This document shows, one piece after another, positions 1,913-12,641 of a stretch of 27,318 bases of DNA. A program made the translations under genes and the position numbers. The notes under the pieces were generated by a model. The model was not told where the DNA came from and did not search any database. It saw only the letters and a list, made by a program, of their open reading frames with translations. The first letter of the stretch is position 1, and the number at the start of each line of letters is the position of its first letter. The stretch covers positions 1 through 27,318 of IMG/VR virus record IMGVR_UViG_3300021963_000538; one strand, 5' to 3'. The stretch is from a virus.

Positions 1913-2154
1913 TATTCACTCGCCTTCTTATCTACCTTAGCAAAGGCAGCATTAATTTCATCTGAATCTAATTTGCCATCTGCTAGGAAGAATCTAGCAA
2001 GTGCTTCTAGCACACGGGCTGCACCAAGTGCGCCCGCTAGTACTGCAGCCTGCCATACTTCAATGCCTACCAAAGAGCCAGCACCGATTACTCCTAGTGC
2101 TTCGGCTGCAATGACTGCAAGGATTCGCATCATTACATTCTTAAATGTATCCAT
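1912..2154 (-). CDS. Holin-like protein with DG-x-L-x-x-[DE]-E-I-x-x-AF tail (80 aa)
   Basis: The 80-residue protein has two hydrophobic segments, about 8-30 (MMRILAVIAAEALGVIGAGSLVG) and 33-58 (EVWQAAVLAGALGAARVLEALARFFL). A polar end, ADGKLDSDEINAAFAKVDKK, follows. Two membrane helices followed by a short DGKL..DEI..AF tail is the pattern of r1t-like holins and related actinophage lysis proteins. It lies directly upstream of the CHAP endolysin with a one-base overlap, the position expected of a holin. Of the four small membrane proteins here it is the best holin candidate. Pore formation is inferred from family and context. Confidence 0.75.
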   Translation of the reverse strand: MDTFKNVMMRILAVIAAEALGVIGAGSLVGIEVWQAAVLAGALGAARVLEALARFFLADGKLDSDEINAAFAKVDKKASE

Positions 2155-2156
2155 AG

Positions 2157-2324
2157 TTATTCCTTCGGGTTACGTAGTCTGAAAGTTGCAACATGTGCAA
2201 CAAAGGTAATCACAATGAAGTAACCAACAACTGCTTTGGCTGAGCCTTCAAGTACTACCCATGCAATGAACATTCCAAGGAATGTCCACAACTGGCTTGC
2301 TAAATCTGAAAGGAATTGCTTCAT
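2157..2324 (-). CDS. Two-helix membrane protein (55 aa)
   Basis: A 55-residue frame starts ATG at 2324, with AGGAG ten bases upstream, and ends TAA at 2157-2159. It is MKQFLSDLASQ followed by a hydrophobic segment at about 12-27 (LWTFLGMFIAWVVLEG), a short polar link and a second segment at about 30-48 (AVVGYFIVITFVAHVATF). It ends in the basic RLRNPKE. Its ATG overlaps the stop of the PA14 gene in an ATGA, and it is followed after two bases by the next holin-like gene. Size, topology and place in the lysis cluster make it a holin, antiholin or accessory lysis protein candidate. It is easily missed because it is under 60 codons. Confidence 0.75.
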   Translation of the reverse strand: MKQFLSDLASQLWTFLGMFIAWVVLEGSAKAVVGYFIVITFVAHVATFRLRNPKE

Positions 2325-3769
2325 TGTTTTCTCCTATAGGCGGCTGCTCCAGCGGCTGCTGCCGCTGATTGTGTTGCTATGCCCCCTGCGATAATGGCTG
2401 AGACCACTACCTTTTCAGACTTCTCTCTTACTTCTGGTGTCATATCAGCACCGACTGACCCTAGTGCAGTTAAGACTGCACCTGGGTCTGTAAATAATTC
2501 TGCTAGTAATTCTGTAGGATTTTGCAGCAACACGATTGCTACTGCTTCCTCTTCTGTTAACACAACTCCGTTATCTAGTGTTACCATTGGCTCACTAACG
2601 ATTGGAGTTACAGGTGCAATTTCAGGCACAAATGTTGGTTCAGGTTCTACAGATGGCTGAGGCAAAGGCTCTGGATTTAGTTCGGTCTGCTCCACAATCT
2701 CGTCCTCAATTAGAATCTCATTCGTATCTTCTTCTTCTAGATATTCAGAAGGTTCATCGACAGGCAATGGCTCTTCAACAACTGGCTCTTGTTCCGTCGG
2801 CTCCTCTAATGGAGCCTCCTCATCTATCTCCTCAGGCAAAGGCTCAGGCTCTACTTGAGGCTGAGACTCGGGCTGAGGTTCTAGAACCAGGATTGGTGTG
2901 GGACGCACTGGTTCAAGTTGAACTACCACAGGAGAAGGAGTAGGCAATGGAGTTTCTATTGGCGCTGTTGACGTTTCTGTTGGGATGGTTTGTGTGCTGG
3001 ATTCAGATGTCGAAGTCTGAGTCTCGCCAGATAGAACAGTTGAAGTCTCAGAGTCGTTCGTGGGAGTCTGAGTATCGACAGGCAAAGGCTCGACTACAGG
3101 CTGAGAAACTGTCGTTTCAGTTTCACTTGAAGAAGTGTAAGTCTCTACCACCTGCGGTGTTTGAGTCTCATTGGGACCATCGATAGTAGTAATCAACTTA
3201 GGCATAGTACTAAATACAGACTCAGGAACTACAGCCCAGTCTTGATTCTCTAGTTGCCAGCGCAGTTGAACAACTGCACCTCCACCATTTTCATAATACC
3301 AAACAGTAAATGGTAGTGACTGATTAGGAACTAGTGTGTATTGATATACATCACCGCTTGTACCCTTGTCCCACCATTCATTAATAATGGTAGAACCATC
3401 TATAATTACAATACAACCATCATCTGCTAGGCACTGCAAGTTAGCAGTACCAGATTCAGTTGCAGTTATATAGCCCTCATACTTAACAACAAAGTCTTCG
3501 GTAAGTCCAGCCATAGGATACAAGTCAAAGTCTTGGTCTACCGTTGCAACTGGGATACTAAACACCATAGGTGTATCAGGTGGGATAGGCGGAGAATCAT
3601 TGTATGTATTCTCTGCAGTTTGATTGTCATAGAAGTATGCTTGTAGCCCCATGTTTGCATGGGCTTGAGGAGCAAACAAGAATGACGTTCCAAAGACTAT
3701 AAGAAAGACTGCGTACTTATTTGCTCTTCTCGCATAGGAGGAGATAAATCTGGTCAACGCGTTGTTCAA
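2321..3769 (-). CDS. Secreted PA14-domain protein with Pro/Glu/Thr stalk and C-terminal anchor-like tail
   Basis: This 482-residue protein has an N-terminal signal peptide: basic residues 14-18, a hydrophobic core at about 20-32 and an AHA cleavage site at 36-38. A PA14-like beta-sandwich spans about 41-187, with the expected F-x-V-x-Y-x-G-Y strand, the DDG turn at 116-118, a later WYYE strand at 157-160, and a possible disulfide between Cys113 and Cys119. PA14 domains commonly bind carbohydrate. Residues about 190-410 form a low-complexity stalk rich in Thr, Ser, Pro, Glu and Gln. The end (about 452-482) is an Ala-rich hydrophobic helix closed by YRRKQ, resembling a membrane anchor with a positive stop. 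The start is TTG with a weak ribosome site and overlaps the upstream gene by 53 bases; a TTG at codon 5 is an alternative. Role unknown: a surface protein made late in infection, or a virion adhesin. Confidence 0.75.
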   Translation of the reverse strand: MNNALTRFISSYARRANKYAVFLIVFGTSFLFAPQAHANMGLQAYFYDNQTAENTYNDSPPIPPDTPMVFSIPVATVDQDFDLYPMAGLTEDFVVKYEGYITATESGTANLQCLADDGCIVIIDGSTIINEWWDKGTSGDVYQYTLVPNQSLPFTVWYYENGGGAVVQLRWQLENQDWAVVPESVFSTMPKLITTIDGPNETQTPQVVETYTSSSETETTVSQPVVEPLPVDTQTPTNDSETSTVLSGETQTSTSESSTQTIPTETSTAPIETPLPTPSPVVVQLEPVRPTPILVLEPQPESQPQVEPEPLPEEIDEEAPLEEPTEQEPVVEEPLPVDEPSEYLEEEDTNEILIEDEIVEQTELNPEPLPQPSVEPEPTFVPEIAPVTPIVSEPMVTLDNGVVLTEEEAVAIVLLQNPTELLAELFTDPGAVLTALGSVGADMTPEVREKSEKVVVSAIIAGGIATQSAAAAAGAAAYRRKQ

Positions 3770-3938
3770 CTCGGTCCAATCGTTCGGTGTTGATATTAAC
3801 TGCGTCCCTCATGCTGCTGCCTGAGTTTGGTTTTAACTCACTCAAGTAATGCTTAACTAACCAGCGAACTGCACTGGTAAATCCAGCAAGTAGTGTCATT
3901 ACGGCTACGGCAAAGCCAGCCCATTCTGCTGCTGACAT
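3717..3938 (-). CDS. Membrane protein with coiled-coil tail, holin-like (73 aa)
   Basis: The 73-residue product has a hydrophobic helix at about 4-28 (AEWAGFAVAVMTLLAGFTSAVRWLV). A polar linker follows, then a heptad-patterned helix at about 46-68 (INTERLDRVEQRVDQIYLLL). One membrane helix with a short coiled coil is common in small actinophage lysis proteins and in proteins next to minor tail genes. Its ATG overlaps the stop of the 680-residue minor tail gene by one base (TAATG). Its last 53 bases overlap the presumed start of the PA14 gene. Best read as a holin-like or accessory lysis membrane protein; a tail-associated membrane protein is possible. Confidence 0.65.
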   Translation of the reverse strand: MSAAEWAGFAVAVMTLLAGFTSAVRWLVKHYLSELKPNSGSSMRDAVNINTERLDRVEQRVDQIYLLLCEKSK

Positions 3939-5980
3939 TAAACCGTCCTCACCACAATCTCAATGATTCCACCATTACCAGTAAACTTACCTGATGGTGG
4001 TGTTGCTTTTGTAAATCGAACTCTTTCAATCTGCACTTGACGCAACTCTTTTGTATTCAAGTCCTGCCATAAAAGAATATCTCCTGGCTCTTCAAGTGAT
4101 TCTAACTGCAGGATTCTATCCTGTGCTCTATCTTCATAGCCTACCTGTACACCATTGCGGTCTGTCTCTACATCATAGCAATAAACAGGAAACTGAATAA
4201 GCCTCTGACGAGGCGTAGCAATAGTAGCCTTAGCCTGATAGCCCTTAAAGATTGGACCAGCAGAAGTAGTTGTAGCATCACGATTAAATAAAAACTTATA
4301 GGCTACATATTCGGCAGCAATAGTTGGCTGGTTAGTTGCAACCTCAACTGAATCTACAACTGAGTCATATGTAATATGGTCATAGACTGTACCATTTTTA
4401 TCGACAGTTGCAAGTGTAAGTGTTCCCTTGCTAAAGTCACCGCGTCCGACAAGACGCTTAAAGTTTTTAGGCTCTAGTGTTCCAAAGCGGATATTACCTG
4501 TAGTCAAATAGCCATCTGCACGAAGAGTAGATGCTGCCTCAACGTATACAGCACCATCGGTTGTGCCGTCATTTGCAGTTGCAAACATAAGTCTATCTCT
4601 AGTTGCTGGGTCTGTATTGCCATCAAAGCAAACAGCAGTAGTGACATGACCAGTCACTCCATCATAATAAACATCGTTTGCATATGCAAAGCGCAGTGTT
4701 TCAATCTCATTTGATAGGTCAATACGAATCAATCCTGGTTCACCAGCAACACCAGCAGCACACCAGACATAATGGTCACGTCCAGCAAAGTCATAGACTG
4801 GCTGAGAAGTCTCCACAATAAGTGGACCGTAATTAATAGAACCATCTTGGTCTGATACAAGTGCTACACGCACACCTTTATTTGTACCTATAATCATATA
4901 GCCAAGGTAATAATAAATCTTATGTACAATTTCACCAACTGGCAACTCGGCTGCAATAACAGCAGATGTGAGTGTCGGCATGGCTCCAGAAGAACTAAGA
5001 GTATACTTCTCAATTGTAGATTGAGCACCATTGTATCCTGAGATATAGATAGCAGGACCTGATGCGGTGATGCTAGTATAAACATGGCTAGTAGATGGAT
5101 TTGTATAAAGCAAGTTTGGCGTAGATGAAACTGCTGCTGCTACCTCATAGACTTTATTGTCCGCACAGATAACTAAACGATGTTTAACGTAGTCAATTAT
5201 TGCATTAGATACAATCTGGCTGTTATCAAAGATTTTAAACTCATCTGTTGTAACAGAAGATGAGCCAGTAAGTGGCTTACCATAGACAGTAAACTTTGTA
5301 GTACCACCTGATGTTACATTGGTAGTCCAGTATGCATTAGTTCCATCGTCACAAATTGAGTAGACTGGATAAACGCCAGCACCTGCATTGTAGTCAATAA
5401 AGTGAACAGGATTACTTGGGTCATCTACTTTAATCTTATCTACATCATAGCCATCATTTAGCAAAGCACCAGTAAAGGTGCTCCACTTAATAGAACGCAT
5501 GTGCTGACGTACTTTGCCATTTGTTGAAACAGCAGCAGTAGTTACATGTCCAGAAGTTACATCTTTAAGCATTGTAACTTGTCCCTTGGTCCAGACATCT
5601 ACGCCCTTGCTATCATAAAAACGATAGTGACCCGACTCATCATTAGTAATTGGGTCATAAAAGTTAATGCCTGCTCCACTATGAAATGACATTTGTGAAC
5701 GCAGCCACCAGCCAGTGAGCGACTGCTCACCAGGCTCTTGACCATTATCAAACTGGTCTTTCTTAAACGGTGCAGTCTCACGAACATATTCGTTCTTATC
5801 GGTAACTGCTGATATAAATGGCATACCACCAATTGCAAAGTCATATGAGATATTAGTATTCTGCCAAACAGAATCTGTTGATACAATACCAACATCTGCA
5901 ATACCACGTGCAATAGGTAGGCTGTCAGGGGCTAACGCCCACTCATTGCCATCACCTTCGGTTATGTCGCGACCAGCCAC
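3938..5980 (-). CDS. Large minor tail protein, beta-propeller-like middle
   Basis: The 680-residue protein has an N-terminal region with SLTGWWLRSQMSFHSGAGINFYD. Between about residues 150 and 480 there are repeated beta-strand blocks with small-residue turns (for example YSICDDGTNAYWTTN, YNGAQSTIEKYTLS, GRDHYVWCAAG), resembling propeller blades. The C-terminal part is beta-rich, with GDILLWQDLNTKEL and the ending GGIIEIVVRTV. This mix is typical of minor tail or tail-tip proteins of actinophages that contact the host surface. It starts at GTG with a good AAGGAGT site seven bases upstream. It follows fibre and adhesin genes and precedes the lysis module. Exact family not recognised; tail location is inferred from context and fold pattern. 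Confidence 0.7.
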   Translation of the reverse strand: MAGRDITEGDGNEWALAPDSLPIARGIADVGIVSTDSVWQNTNISYDFAIGGMPFISAVTDKNEYVRETAPFKKDQFDNGQEPGEQSLTGWWLRSQMSFHSGAGINFYDPITNDESGHYRFYDSKGVDVWTKGQVTMLKDVTSGHVTTAAVSTNGKVRQHMRSIKWSTFTGALLNDGYDVDKIKVDDPSNPVHFIDYNAGAGVYPVYSICDDGTNAYWTTNVTSGGTTKFTVYGKPLTGSSSVTTDEFKIFDNSQIVSNAIIDYVKHRLVICADNKVYEVAAAVSSTPNLLYTNPSTSHVYTSITASGPAIYISGYNGAQSTIEKYTLSSSGAMPTLTSAVIAAELPVGEIVHKIYYYLGYMIIGTNKGVRVALVSDQDGSINYGPLIVETSQPVYDFAGRDHYVWCAAGVAGEPGLIRIDLSNEIETLRFAYANDVYYDGVTGHVTTAVCFDGNTDPATRDRLMFATANDGTTDGAVYVEAASTLRADGYLTTGNIRFGTLEPKNFKRLVGRGDFSKGTLTLATVDKNGTVYDHITYDSVVDSVEVATNQPTIAAEYVAYKFLFNRDATTTSAGPIFKGYQAKATIATPRQRLIQFPVYCYDVETDRNGVQVGYEDRAQDRILQLESLEEPGDILLWQDLNTKELRQVQIERVRFTKATPPSGKFTGNGGIIEIVVRTV

Positions 5981-6008: not shown

Positions 6009-6239
6009 TTATTCAGTTGGTGCTATAAAGATGTCTTGCTCTGGGTCATAGGAATACCCAATGCCTGCATATACGCCACGGATATTTCCGTTATAACTTG
6101 TACGCTTACAAGTTTGACCACGAAGTTCTCCGTAGTACGCTTCCCAATCAAAGATTCCACCTACTGCTTCATATTCATCACGACCAGTAATTACTTCTGT
6201 AACAATATTATTTTCATCTAAAAATGCATAATGTGCCAT
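6009..6239 (-). CDS. Small tail-associated conserved protein (76 aa)
   Basis: The 76-residue protein begins MAHYAFLDENNIVTEVITG and ends with NGNIRGVYAGIGYSYDPEQDIFIAP. The block [ST]YN-G-[NK]-IR-x2-YAG-IGY-x-YD-x3-D-x-FI-P recurs in many small phage proteins beside tail-fibre genes, particularly in aquatic phages. I recognise the pattern, but no biochemical role is established that I can cite. Here it sits between the glycine-rich adhesins and the 680-residue tail protein. Its ATG overlaps the adhesin stop by one base. It may be a fibre tip, connector or assembly factor. Confidence 0.65.
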   Translation of the reverse strand: MAHYAFLDENNIVTEVITGRDEYEAVGGIFDWEAYYGELRGQTCKRTSYNGNIRGVYAGIGYSYDPEQDIFIAPTE

Positions 6240-7093
6240 TAAACAGTCACCGTCCCTGTTCCCGCTGTAAACTGGTAAACCCTATAACCTGAACGAGATA
6301 CTGTTGAATAACTGTAAGTTAAACCAGCATCAATTGTAGTTAACGGACGATATGTATCTGGATATGCAAGAATAACAATGCCTGAACCGCCACCTTGGGC
6401 TGCTGCGCTTCTTCCGCAGCCACCACCACCGCCTGTATTAACAGTGCCTGGTTGTGGGTTATCATCGGCAGAAGTTCCACCTCTGCCTCCTCCACCAGAA
6501 CCTCCTGTTGGAATAGTTGTGCTTGATGATGCTCTACCTGCACCGCCACCGCCTGCTCTTGTTACTGCGGTTCCAGTAATTGAAGATGATAAACCATTAC
6601 CACCGTGTCCACCTGTGTCAGATGCAGCACCCGCACTACCTGCAGCACCAGCACCTCCACCTCCACCAGACCAAGAGTTAGATGCACCACCTGCATTACC
6701 TTGACCTGCTGGACTTGCAGCACCACCACTAAAGGTATTGTATCCAGCACCGCCACCAGAACCACCTGCAGTACCGTTAGAACCATTTCCTCCACGACCA
6801 CCACCTGTTGAGGTTATGGAAGAAAAAACTGATGCGTTTCCAGAAGTTGCAGCACCGCCTCCTGCACCGACAGTAACTGTAAAGGAAGCGCCAGAGTTAA
6901 CGGAAAATCCTGTTGATGTTAAATAACCACCAGCACCACCACCTCCATTAGATGCAGCACCACCTCCACCACCACCTGCAATTACAAGATATTCAAAAAT
7001 AGTAGGTGGGTAGTATGCTGCATTACCAGAAAGAAAAGAATCTGATTTATTAAGAGTCTTTAAACTTGAATTAGATATTCTTGTAATAGCCAT
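6239..7093 (-). CDS. Glycine-rich adhesin/tail-fibre-like protein, copy A (284 aa)
   Basis: After about 32 ordinary residues comes a strand, FEYLVIAGGGGGG. It opens roughly 200 residues dominated by Gly, Ala and Ser in GG-x-GG runs, interrupted by a strand-like FTVTVGAGG. The region closes with GGGSGIVILAYP, a standard end of the glycine-rich domains of phage fibres, and a 45-residue C-terminal beta unit ending GYRVYQFTAGTGTVTV. Glycine-rich phage adhesins (T4-like S16 gp38 type) fold as polyglycine-II helix bundles that display loops to receptors, so host binding is the likely role. The gene is a tandem paralogue of its upstream neighbour and is joined to it by a TAATG overlap. Receptor and virion position are inference. 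Confidence 0.75.
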   Translation of the reverse strand: MAITRISNSSLKTLNKSDSFLSGNAAYYPPTIFEYLVIAGGGGGGAASNGGGGAGGYLTSTGFSVNSGASFTVTVGAGGGAATSGNASVFSSITSTGGGRGGNGSNGTAGGSGGGAGYNTFSGGAASPAGQGNAGGASNSWSGGGGGAGAAGSAGAASDTGGHGGNGLSSSITGTAVTRAGGGGAGRASSSTTIPTGGSGGGGRGGTSADDNPQPGTVNTGGGGGCGRSAAAQGGGSGIVILAYPDTYRPLTTIDAGLTYSYSTVSRSGYRVYQFTAGTGTVTV

Positions 7094-7953
7094 TAAACTG
7101 TTACCGTTCCTGTTCCTGCCGTGAATCGATAAACACGATAACCTGTACGTGTTGGTTGGTCATAGGTCAATGTACCTGGAATTGATGAAAGTGCTGGATA
7201 TGTATTTGGATAGGCAATAACTACAATACCTGAACCACCGTTGTATGAATAAGGAGCACTTCCATTACCTCGACCACCGCCTGCTCCTGTATTTGCTGCG
7301 CCTGCTGTACTGGCTGCAGTCGCACCATTACCAGTTGTACCTGCACCACCAAAATCTGTGCCATTACCACCACCGCCATAATAAACAGTAGTTCCAGTTA
7401 TACTACTTGCAACACCTGGACCAGCGTTTTTTCCACTTCCAGCGCCGCCTGCCCCACCGCCACCTCCGCCAACATAACCATACATATTTCCATTATTGGA
7501 AACAGTTGCGCCAGGATAACCATCAACTCCAGCACCACCAGTATATGTTCCAGTTACGCTACCAGCAACATACGCACCACCGCCATTACCACCAGAAATA
7601 CCATTTGCGGAAATACCTGGTGTTCCATTTAATCCATAGCCACCACCAAGAGCAGTGACTGTGCTAAACACAGAAGACGCACCATTTGTGCTTGAAGTAC
7701 TGTTTGTGGGAGCAACAGTTACTGTAAATGTAGAACCTATTGGTAAGGTAAATAATGAACCAGTTTTTACCGTGCCACCACCTGCTCCAGAACCTCCACC
7801 ATATGCAGGGTTTCCCATTCCAATGCCACCAGCACCAACAACAAGATAATCAACCAATATAGATGGAAAGTAATACTGGTTGCCGACAAGTATAGAGCGA
7901 TACTTAGGGAACTTCTGAACTATGCTAGAAGTTTTGATACTGGACGCAGCCAT
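7093..7953 (-). CDS. Glycine-rich adhesin/tail-fibre-like protein, copy B (286 aa)
   Basis: The architecture is the same as in the downstream paralogue. A 35-residue lead ends in LVDYLVVGAGG and is followed by a glycine-rich core of about 200 residues. An internal strand FTVTVAP sits where copy A has FTVTVGAGG. The core closes with GGSGIVVIAYPNTY and a C-terminal unit ending GYRVYRFTAGTGTVTV. The first and last segments are much more alike between copies than the core. The core of copy B has more Asn, Tyr and Thr loops and fewer long Gly runs. A plausible reading is two receptor-binding variants, or two subunits of one adhesin. A GAGG site lies just upstream of the ATG. Confidence 0.75.
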   Translation of the reverse strand: MAASSIKTSSIVQKFPKYRSILVGNQYYFPSILVDYLVVGAGGIGMGNPAYGGGSGAGGGTVKTGSLFTLPIGSTFTVTVAPTNSTSSTNGASSVFSTVTALGGGYGLNGTPGISANGISGGNGGGAYVAGSVTGTYTGGAGVDGYPGATVSNNGNMYGYVGGGGGGAGGAGSGKNAGPGVASSITGTTVYYGGGGNGTDFGGAGTTGNGATAASTAGAANTGAGGGRGNGSAPYSYNGGSGIVVIAYPNTYPALSSIPGTLTYDQPTRTGYRVYRFTAGTGTVTV

Positions 7954-7956
7954 AGA

Positions 7957-8277
7957 CTACGCCTCATCGCCGAAGGCTGTGAATGTAAGGTTAGCAGTTG
8001 ATGCATATACTGTTACAACATCTGTAGCAGCAAGGGTGATACCAAGTGTAAGCGCTGTTGAATCAGATGCTCCGACTGTAATATCGTATGCTACATACTG
8101 TGAGTTAGCAAGTGTTGCTCCTGCTACACGGATTGCAACACGATATGTTGCTGCCGTTGTTGTGAGGTTAGCAATTACAAGTGTTGAGATTACAGCCGAC
8201 TTACCTGACGGTACTGTGTAAAGTGTTGTTGCCGTTGTCGCTGATGGGTTTAATTGCCCAAGTACTTTTTTAGCCAT
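7957..8277 (-). CDS. Small virion structural protein, beta-sandwich type (106 aa)
   Basis: The 106-residue protein starts MAKKVLGQLNPSATTATTLYTVPSG and continues with alternating hydrophobic and Thr/Ala strands (AVISTLVIANLTTTAATYRVAIRVAG). It ends LAATDVVTVYASTANLTFTAFGDEA. The order (GQ-x-P-x-A-[TA]-T..TLYTVP, then V-S/T-x-L-V-x-N, then LGITLAATDVVTVYA) matches a small structural protein family seen across phages near fibre genes. It is often just annotated as virion or head/tail structural protein. A clear AGGAG site lies 11 bases before the ATG. It sits between the repeat-bearing fibre and the adhesins. A fibre base, decoration or trimer cap role is possible; I cannot decide. Confidence 0.65.
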   Translation of the reverse strand: MAKKVLGQLNPSATTATTLYTVPSGKSAVISTLVIANLTTTAATYRVAIRVAGATLANSQYVAYDITVGASDSTALTLGITLAATDVVTVYASTANLTFTAFGDEA

Positions 8278-8300
8278 TGTTATTTCTCCTAGTTAGTTTC

Positions 8301-9761
8301 TTAAGCGCCCATCATCATAAAGATGTCAGCGGTAGGGTCGGTTGTTACTGAAGCCCAAGATGAAGTTGTTCCATCTGTGGTTAAATATTTGCCTGAGTTG
8401 CCAGTCTGACTTGGCACAACATATGCAGTTGAGTCAGTAGCCACAAGTGTCTTGCTTGAAGGAATTGTTGTACCATTAATTGATGTAGCAGTTGCTACTC
8501 CGAGTACTGGAGTGATAAGTGTTGGAGTGTTATCCATTACGAACTTAGTACCAGTGCCAGTCTGAGAGGCAATAGATGTAGCAGAACCAACGGAAGTAAT
8601 AGGACCAGTCAGGTTGCTAGGAGCAAGAACTACGTTATCAAGGTAGTACTTAGTAACTGCATCCTGTGCGTTGGTTGGGTCGCCAAGACCTGTAATCTTG
8701 TTGGTTCCCATAGCAAGAGCACCGCTCATTGTTGAGCCAGACTTGAGAACTACTGTATCTGAGAAGTTTGCTGTATCAGCCAAGGCTGCAGCAATCTCAT
8801 CTAATGTATCAAGAGTTGTAGGAGCACCAGCAATAAGGTTGTTGATTGCTGTGCCAACATATGCTGTAGTTGCTACCTGAGTAGTATTTGTACCTGCAGT
8901 AGCAGTTGGAGCAGTTGGAGTGCCAGTAAGTGCAGGACTTGCAAGCGGTGCATATGTGCTAGATGCTGTGCTAGTTGATAGTTTAGAATCTAACTGAGTC
9001 TGGACGGCAGATGTGACACCATCTAAATATCCAAGTTCTGTTGCAGATACTGTAGATGATGGGGCAATCTTTGACCAATCAATAGCAGCAGATGCGTTAA
9101 TGTCGCCATTTACAATGCCGTTAGTTAGCGCTAGTTTGCCATAGGCAATCTGGGCAGATGTGTTAATATCAGCATTTACGATAGTGCCATCTGCAATCTT
9201 GCCTGATGTAATAGCAGAGTCAGCAATTTTTCCAGTAGTTACATTAAGGTCAGCAATCTTGGCTGTAGTAACATTAGCATCTGCTATCTTAGCAGTTGTA
9301 ATATTTGCATCTGTAATCTTGGCAGTGGTCACAGCATTTGCTTGAAGCATTGCTGTTGTAATCATATCTGTATCTGTTGTTTCTAAAACGTTAGCAATTG
9401 TTAGACCATGAACAGAAGTGACATTATTGGCATGGTCATTGGCTTCTTGGTAATCCTCACCAATAGCCATGTGACGAACCTCAGCACCTGCTGAGTGAGC
9501 CTGTGCAATAGAGCCGTCAATTGCGCGTGCAATTGCTAATGTGTTACCAGATACAGGATTTGCTGATGAGGAATATACTTGTACAATTTCTTCAAGCGCT
9601 GTGTCTGGGTCAATGACTACAGTAAAGCGCTGACCAGCAGTAAGTGTTTTGCCACCCATAAGGGCAACAGCAGACACAACTGTAATAGAAGCACTAGATG
9701 AAGTAATCGCAGAAGCAAGTGTTGTCTTCTGTGAGCGGGATGAATATTTTCTGACTGCCAT
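8301..9761 (-). CDS. Tail fibre protein with decapeptide repeats
   Basis: This 486-residue protein has three recognisable parts. Residues 1-115 form a beta-rich attachment region (TVVSAVALMGGKTLTAGQRFTVVI, VRHMAIGEDYQEANDHANN). Residues about 141-200 are six decapeptide repeats of the form D-[AL]-N-[VI]-T-T-x-K-I-A, a beta-helical shaft pattern. Residues about 262-300 contain APLASPALTGTPTAPTA..TQVATTAYV, the lambda-like tail-fibre motif. MSGALAMGTNKITGLGDPTNAQDAVTKYY (about 344-372) is another widespread fibre motif. The C-terminal part ends IFMMMGA. The fibre is probably a trimeric shaft with a distal tip. AGGA lies upstream of the ATG. It follows the adaptor gene by nine bases. Confidence 0.85.
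   Translation of the reverse strand: MAVRKYSSRSQKTTLASAITSSSASITVVSAVALMGGKTLTAGQRFTVVIDPDTALEEIVQVYSSSANPVSGNTLAIARAIDGSIAQAHSAGAEVRHMAIGEDYQEANDHANNVTSVHGLTIANVLETTDTDMITTAMLQANAVTTAKITDANITTAKIADANVTTAKIADLNVTTGKIADSAITSGKIADGTIVNADINTSAQIAYGKLALTNGIVNGDINASAAIDWSKIAPSSTVSATELGYLDGVTSAVQTQLDSKLSTSTASSTYAPLASPALTGTPTAPTATAGTNTTQVATTAYVGTAINNLIAGAPTTLDTLDEIAAALADTANFSDTVVLKSGSTMSGALAMGTNKITGLGDPTNAQDAVTKYYLDNVVLAPSNLTGPITSVGSATSIASQTGTGTKFVMDNTPTLITPVLGVATATSINGTTIPSSKTLVATDSTAYVVPSQTGNSGKYLTTDGTTSSWASVTTDPTADIFMMMGA
9162..9341 (-). repeat. Six 30-base units encoding fibre-shaft decapeptides
   Basis: Codons 141-200 of the fibre gene encode six consecutive ten-residue units (ANAVTTAKIT, DANITTAKIA, DANVTTAKIA, DLNVTTGKIA, DSAITSGKIA, DGTIVNADIN). 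The middle units are best conserved and the outer ones have drifted. The regular ten-residue period with K-I-A-D turns fits a beta-helical or triple-beta shaft. Confidence 0.8.
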
Positions 9762-11965: not shown

Positions 11966-12249
11966 TACCACTTCACCTTATCTGCCCAGTATGCTGCGCT
12001 TAGTTTGCCTTTAGAGATGTTAGAAGCGTGTCGTGCTTTAAACGACTTGCGACGAGCAGCATAGGATGCTGACTCTCCAGCCTTCTTAGGAGAACCGCTA
12101 ACACCTTGCTGACCAAAACGGATGGTCTTAACTGTGCTACCTTCTTTAGCCACAACTACGTGTGACTTCTTAGGATGGTTTGGTGTACGTTTTGGCTTGT
12201 TGTAGCCAGCCACACCTGCCCTTGTTAGGCGAGAGTCTTTTTTATTCAT
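11965..12249 (-). CDS. Conserved small basic phage protein (94 aa)
   Basis: The 94-residue product reads MNKKDSRLTRAGVAGYNKPKRTPNHP, then KSHVVVAKEG and TIRFGQQGVSGSP, and then a basic helical end, RRKSFKARHASNISKGKLSAAYWADKVKW. The blocks KRTP-x-HP-x-KSH-x-VVAKEG, IRFGQQG and SFKARH...I-KGK-SAAYWA-KVKW recur in phages from several environments. To my knowledge the function is unknown, and I do not name a Pfam family with confidence. It overlaps the 131-residue gene by four bases (ATGA) and the 424-residue gene by one. Its place in the basic-protein block suggests a virion or genome-packaging association. It lacks enzymatic motifs. Confidence 0.75.
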   Translation of the reverse strand: MNKKDSRLTRAGVAGYNKPKRTPNHPKKSHVVVAKEGSTVKTIRFGQQGVSGSPKKAGESASYAARRKSFKARHASNISKGKLSAAYWADKVKW

Positions 12250-12641
12250 CTGAACTTAGCCGTCTTCTTTGCTATAGATTTTGGTTGTCTTACAAATTGC
12301 TTGCCTTTGGCTGCACCAGCCCGCTTTGCAGCGGTGGTTTTAGCGTACTCAGAGGCCGATAGAGCCGCTCTAGCCTTCTTGGGTAGGTAACGCTCACCAG
12401 TAGCCTTAGACCCTTGTGTGCTGGGCTTGCCTGACTTTGTACCCCAGTCCTCTTTAGTCCACTTGGACAGTGAGGATTGAGCCTTGGTCTTGCTACCTGA
12501 GTAGCCACCGCCTGCTTTCTTATAAGCCTGAGCCAGTAACTGAGCCTTGCGAGCAGACCATTGACCAGGCTTACCGCCCTTAGAACCAGACATAATCTGG
12601 TTCTTTAGGCGTTCACGTAAGGCTGTCTTGGTGTATGCCAT
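12246..12641 (-). CDS. DUF5872-like basic protein (131 aa)
   Basis: The 131-residue protein carries QWSARKAQLLAQAYKKAGGGYSG (about 27-49) followed by SLSKWTKEDWGTKSGKPS. A conserved stretch, ATGERYLPKKARAALSASEYAKTTAAKR, and a basic tail complete it. The WSARKAQL..YK-x-GGGY, KWT-x-EDW-TKSGKPS and ERYLP..A...LS..EYA.TT..K blocks fit a protein of unknown function that I associate with DUF5872, found in phages and in large eukaryotic viruses. The spread over unrelated large DNA viruses hints at a general virion or genome-handling task, but no activity is established. It follows the 44-residue basic gene (its ATG precedes by one base) and overlaps the next gene in ATGA. The DUF number is from memory. 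Confidence 0.7.
   Translation of the reverse strand: MAYTKTALRERLKNQIMSGSKGGKPGQWSARKAQLLAQAYKKAGGGYSGSKTKAQSSLSKWTKEDWGTKSGKPSTQGSKATGERYLPKKARAALSASEYAKTTAAKRAGAAKGKQFVRQPKSIAKKTAKFR

Follow-up and report, generated by a model that had tools for sequence, protein, structure and literature searches.

The DNA analysed here, referred to as the window, is a linear viral record of 27.3 kb (27,318 nucleotides) in which structural and lysis genes lie on one strand, together with a divergent whiB-like gene. The feature at positions 2321–3769 proves to be two genes that are obligately paired, one for an exported stalk protein (gene A) and one for a small membrane protein directly downstream (gene B). 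Gene A is an open reading frame of 482 amino acids on the minus strand that opens with a TTG codon. A second TTG (MTRFIS...) lies four codons inside the frame and matches the start of several relatives, and the exact start of the gene is therefore uncertain.

Organization of gene A

The N-terminal 38 residues (3656–3769) read as a signal peptide, with an n-region that contains Arg, the core AVFLIVFGTSFLF, and an AHA site followed by Asn with cleavage after residue 38. An equivalent signal-peptide-like segment begins nearly all of the complete proteins among 105 distinct relatives. Inspection of residues 1 to 45 finds no Cys, and so no lipobox. The PA14 head (residues 39–190; 3200–3655) is followed by a Thr/Pro/Glu-rich stalk of about 190 residues (roughly 191–384; 2618–3199) that is predicted to be disordered, with low AlphaFold confidence and no structure in the model. 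The conserved C-terminal domain (residues 385–444; 2438–2617), with a GADM motif at 440–443, is modeled with short helices at 406–438 at a pLDDT of about 75. It leads into the C-terminal tail (residues 445–482; 2324–2437), which comprises PEVREKSEK, an Ala-rich helix of 34 residues modeled at 445–478, and the end YRRKQ, as delineated by the alignment of relatives, a profile and AlphaFold. The AlphaFold model of gene A drew on 49 aligned sequences, taken from the window and from the loci. A first-pass annotation of the window had proposed a signal peptide with an AHA site, a PA14-like domain with a DDG turn, a Thr/Pro/Glu-rich stalk and a final Ala-rich helix with YRRKQ, all within the lysis region, and these elements are indeed present.

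The final helix appears only marginally hydrophobic, the Hessa scale giving the family an average of about +4 kcal/mol, and its sequence does not suggest a clear membrane anchor. No LPXTG-like motif is present in gene A or in the tails of its relatives, and the idea that the tail is a standard sorting signal was dropped on that ground. In one group of relatives (L017–L052) the tails are short, with about 14 hydrophobic residues before RKP, and gene B is still next.

The PA14 head

Residues 73–177 of gene A match the Pfam PA14 family (PF07691) with an E-value of 1.4e-10, scoring 41.6 bits where the cut-off is 24, and a sequence match in the PDB is RsgI3 (6qe7, 7e-07). The AlphaFold model has a pLDDT of about 77–95 over residues 61–190, mostly 87–95 from residue 71 onward, and the head is confidently predicted to adopt the PA14 beta-sandwich fold. 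A failure of structure prediction to give this fold had been named in the first-pass annotation as the outcome that would speak against its reading; the fold was obtained. Structure comparison using VIA-align places the head closest to 6qe7 (Z 18.8, 2.6 Å over 142 residues), with Z scores of 15.8 for 6m8m, about 15.5 for the sugar-bound PA14 domain of a Marinomonas adhesin, and about 14 for the Flo and Epa lectins of yeast. All 13 PA14-headed proteins compared keep the DDG turn (D116-D117-G118 in gene A), and judging from the sequence the paired Asp of lectin-type PA14 members is present in gene A as D116-D117.

The nearest cellular PA14 heads occur in proteins secreted by freshwater Microbacteriaceae and by related actinobacterial bins, two of which (L135 and L141) carry a sortase-like LADTG end. 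Proteins of 1,200–1,500 amino acids in freshwater Micrococcales bins (L136–L139 and L146) combine a PA14 domain with Ig-like or FN3-like repeats, an Ala-rich helix and a multi-pass membrane domain. Homology between the tail of gene A and the Ala-rich helices of the Microbacteriaceae PA14 proteins was considered and rejected, as it has no profile support and the likeness is compositional.

Gene B and its pairing with gene A

Gene B (2157–2324, minus strand) encodes a predicted membrane protein of 55 amino acids and was overlooked in the first-pass annotation. Its ATG overlaps the stop codon of gene A (ATGA, 2321–2324). The protein is modeled as a helical hairpin with helices at residues 2–26 and 29–46 and a mean pLDDT of 93, and the first helix is only moderately hydrophobic on the biological scale. 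Residue E26 (2247–2249), in the motif VLEGSAK, sits at the turn. All 116 A genes whose 3′ end is complete are followed directly by gene B, and gene A lies directly upstream in 78 of the 79 loci found with the B profile, the remaining locus being cut by a contig edge; the contigs of these two sets overlap. Among 69 loci chosen by the neighboring 73-amino acid gene described below and by sufficient downstream sequence, 35 have both genes, 34 have neither, and none has one alone. The anchored surface protein of the first-pass annotation thus stands as to export and the stalk, but not as a lone C-terminal anchor, because a coevolving 55-residue hairpin follows. One contig (L168, G457:C114) carries a remnant-like A tail of 57 amino acids with its own gene B at 12036–12580, as well as a longer A gene at 7560–9692.

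Gene B has no match in Pfam, PHROGs, or phage and plasmid records, and the tail of gene A was not found in annotated phage records. More generally, the conserved part of the pair, that is the C-terminal domain together with B, found no match when annotated phage records and family libraries were searched, and is unrelated to the PA14 families, to which the head alone belongs. A literature search conducted mostly outside subscription journals found no report of the pair.

Relatives and the exchange of heads

A search using the whole gene A protein returned 51 viral contigs, many of them matched at the C-terminal end alone, and a profile of the C-terminal tail shows that it is encoded by at least 509 viral contigs, which argues that the feature is more than a chance occurrence. 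Among 93 clustered relatives the commonest head has two cysteines (55 of 93), a head with the pattern GGDD...NSVITFG accounts for 16, and the PA14 head for 12. Rarer heads include FN3-like and PPC-like forms, judged by eye, and Pfam gave no name to the heads other than PA14. In relatives with unlike heads the heads are 7–21% identical to that of the window, against 10–17% for shuffled sequence, and the C-terminal domains are 71–87% identical; five of these relatives (L056, L058, L062, L065 and L071) have C-terminal domains at 78–87% identity. Some genes neighboring A are up to 97% identical among loci where heads differ. From these comparisons heads are exchanged between close relatives, with the C-terminal domain as the constant part. 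Carbohydrate binding, which the first-pass annotation ascribed to the displayed domain, is therefore not the constant function of the system, PA14 being one of several exchangeable heads.

Several loci depart from the usual architecture. In L003, L092 and L096 the stalk is also swapped, and charged, coiled-coil-like KAEEERIKAEEEA repeats replace the Pro/Thr/Glu stalk. In L013 gene A is seemingly split into a head and a tail reading frame (2151–3278 and 3378–3659), and in L075 a single reading frame, from position 6083 onward, fuses the 73-amino acid gene to the middle of A through deletion or misassembly.

Coevolution of A and B

Corrected mutual information between the A tail and B identifies one outstanding residue pair at 12 standard deviations, the next pair reaching 4.6, and six control pairs of neighboring genes peak at 5.1–6.8 standard deviations without a comparable outlier. 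The two sites are the residue after DM[ST]PE in A (V447 in the window; 2429–2431) and the variable position of VL-x-GSAK in B (E26). Across 122 non-redundant loci the A–B states are V/A with E in 80, E/Q with D in 39, E with E in two and T with T in one, so that a rule pairing Val or Ala with Glu, Glu or Gln with Asp, and Thr with Thr has two exceptions in 122 loci. On a tree built without the two tested sites, all seven changes in B share branches with changes in A (7/7, expected 0.43), although the sequences are short and single branches are uncertain. So sharp a signal at one residue pair argues for direct contact, and on this sequence evidence we consider it very probable that A and B interact directly.

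Gene neighborhood and carriers

Gene A lies between tail genes and the endolysin, and all the neighboring genes described here are on the same (minus) strand. On the tail side is a 73-amino acid protein with a membrane segment and a coil (3717–3938), recognized by PHROG search and from relatives' loci, which marks the cassette and also occurs without A and B. Beyond it is a structural protein of 680 amino acids (3938–5980) that matches phrog_11667 and that is putatively nozzle-like from its position. On the other side, an 80-amino acid membrane protein (1912–2154) with a weak match to phrog_443 and a best match to phrog_26427 is a holin candidate from PHROG search and locus comparison, and a CHAP endolysin (1403–1912) is identified by Pfam and PHROG. 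The closer loci repeat the order phrog_11667 protein, 73-residue coil protein, A, B, 80-residue membrane protein, CHAP endolysin and a membrane protein of 62 residues; in a more distant group the 80-residue protein alone is still recognized beside A and B. In L292 (4200–5117) and L313 a glycosyltransferase, possibly surface-modifying, occupies the slot of A and B directly after the 73-amino acid gene; that of L292 matches Pfam PF11397 at 2.9e-33. Farther upstream in the window, two glycine-rich proteins at 6239–7953 (one Gly_rich_2, PF21722) are candidate receptor-binding tips.

Ca. Planktophila is a member of an order that ranks among the most abundant in lakes. The window shares its surroundings with E7 and F5, two cultured phages of Planktophila (PMC10202952), with a phrog_11667 protein at 62% identity; the cassette is present in both, and neither A nor B is found there. 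We infer from these common surroundings that the host of the window phage is a Nanopelagicales-type actinobacterium of fresh water. Hundreds of freshwater viruses carry A and B, and their hosts are probably tiny, very abundant lake bacteria.

Copies on host chromosomes

The first-pass annotation had suggested that host surface proteins with the same C-terminal tail be sought. A motif scan of 84,980 species genomes for the A tail confirmed no copy; its pattern was too strict, and divergent copies came from a later profile search. The A-tail and B profiles each pick out the same three of 296 genomes of one actinobacterial order (genomes of about 0.8–1.9 Mb), and a distribution limited to viruses, entertained earlier, was abandoned. 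A fourth match of the B profile, in G428, is at the threshold, and weaker A-tail profile matches with E-values of 0.001–0.01 were discounted as probably fortuitous. Housekeeping genes surround the pair in G347, where the A protein carries a signal peptide, a head of another kind and a stalk. No endolysin was recognized among the neighbors read around the chromosomal copies, which show T with T at the coevolving sites. By sequence, then, both the A–B unit and the PA14 heads have cellular counterparts, and the chromosomal copies indicate that the pair is not used in lysis or phage exclusion alone.

Discussion

The reading we favor, with some reserve, is that A and B together make up a two-component unit for surface display, which places a head on the infected cell, probably late in infection, with adsorption interference as its most likely use. 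Gene A would be exported by Sec and its signal peptide removed, after which the protein would be kept at the membrane through its conserved C-terminal domain, the weakly hydrophobic C-terminal helix pairing with the hairpin that the two helices of B form. On the outer face, V447 at the base of the A helix would touch the turn of B at E26, and the long stalk would take the swappable binding head, in the window phage a PA14 domain of the lectin-type fold, through and beyond the wall. The signal peptide and the basic ends of A and B suggest this topology, with the stalk outside and the tail helix in the membrane beside B, and display of gene A outside the cell is itself probable. Because the genes adjoin lysis genes, both proteins are probably made late, coating the infected cell. 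Against this model, the hydrophobicity of the tail on the biological scale is too low to predict a membrane helix with confidence, and in some relatives the tail has no more than about 14 hydrophobic residues; the same marginal hydrophobicity would explain the need for B. The alternative that A is held by its own C-terminal helix, with B an unrelated small lysis protein that lies downstream by chance, has in its favor that a 34-residue helix followed by basic residues fits a type I anchor and that many phage lysis genes encode small membrane proteins. The marginal tail, the all-or-none co-occurrence in both directions, host chromosomes included, and a residue-level coevolution unmatched by neighboring gene pairs make it very improbable. 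Still harder to credit is a tail or capsid appendage in which the hydrophobic N-terminus does not function as a signal peptide. A adjoins tail genes on the same strand and a stalk with a lectin-type head resembles a fiber, but signal-peptide-like N-termini accompany many head types in nearly all complete A proteins, the partner B is an obligate membrane protein, copies occur on host chromosomes, and A matches no tail-fiber family in Pfam or PHROGs.

What the displayed head is for is a more tentative matter. Adsorption interference, either as superinfection exclusion or by keeping progeny off envelope debris, is a plausible purpose by analogy that we put forward cautiously. The precedent is Llp of phages T5 and BF23, receptor-blocking lipoproteins that do the same job with no homology to each other (PMC4728585). 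The likeness is that Llp is phage-encoded, made in the infected cell and active at the host surface, and its non-homologous versions recall the exchangeable heads. However, Llp is a lipoprotein of phages with Gram-negative hosts, has a known receptor and is encoded beside the receptor-binding gene, whereas A lacks a lipobox, comes with a partner protein and carries a modular head on a long stalk, nor does head type follow the tail genes tested. Masking of a cognate receptor would predict that head class covaries with the tail genes. For the nozzle-like protein no such covariation is seen (65 loci, p 0.91); for the upstream receptor-binding block the comparison (p 0.51) covers 24 loci and has low power. 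As head type tracks neither, adhesion to other surfaces becomes a serious rival, in which the head would stick infected cells or debris to cells, algae or particles and so aid spread. PA14 heads share their fold with the Flo/Epa and MpAFP adhesins, similar host proteins exist, and head swaps independent of the tail genes tested are expected if the targets lie outside the phage–receptor pair. The inferred hosts, however, are thought to be free-living plankton, and the gain for a lytic phage is speculative, so that we regard adhesion as unlikely on balance.

In a lysis-timing role, A would be an exported regulator of B, itself acting as a class II holin or antiholin; the head would sense the outside and the tail would gate B. 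B does resemble a class II holin in having two predicted membrane helices in a short hairpin. In phages it is near the endolysin, between A and a second holin candidate, and it coevolves with A. T4 RI is a precedent for an exported holin regulator (PMC8385771), and like RI and holin T the pair consists of an exported protein beside a small membrane protein in the lysis region. The differences weigh more heavily: searches of Pfam and PHROGs give A and B no family match to RI and holin T, the pair occurs on chromosomes with no recognized endolysin adjoining, roughly one in two phages that have this cassette is without A and B yet keeps an endolysin, and B is unusually conserved for a holin in a cassette that has another candidate. 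We judge this explanation rather improbable. The pair also differs from two-gene spanins, because A without a lipobox would not be an outer-membrane lipoprotein and B is a hairpin.

Compared with other PA14 proteins (PF07691), including the RsgI3 sensor, MpAFP, Flo and Epa, the gene A protein has the same fold, the DDG turn and a putative surface-displayed binding head, but the head is the only part of the A family that belongs with them, and most members carry other heads. Sortase-anchored proteins of the LPXTG type, such as Rhodoluna L135, share with it a signal peptide, a PA14 head, a C-terminal hydrophobic stretch and a basic end; A differs in lacking an LPXTG-type motif and in having a dedicated membrane partner instead.

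Phage proteins that act at the surface of the infected host are known mostly as small lipoproteins and membrane proteins of model phages. The system described here, which recurs in at least 509 viral contigs, joins a modular stalked protein to a dedicated membrane partner; many of these contigs are akin in gene content to Planktophila phages. It may, at somewhat short of an even chance, be a mobile general-purpose display cassette, a stalk protein with plug-in heads and a coevolved membrane dock, whose heads phages swap to redress the dying cell. Were this so, hundreds of phages from fresh water would have the cassette in common with a small number of actinobacterial chromosomes, with some heads resembling host surface proteins. 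With one coevolving residue pair, one genomic slot and swappable heads, A and B would offer a testable handle on the surface of the dying cell.
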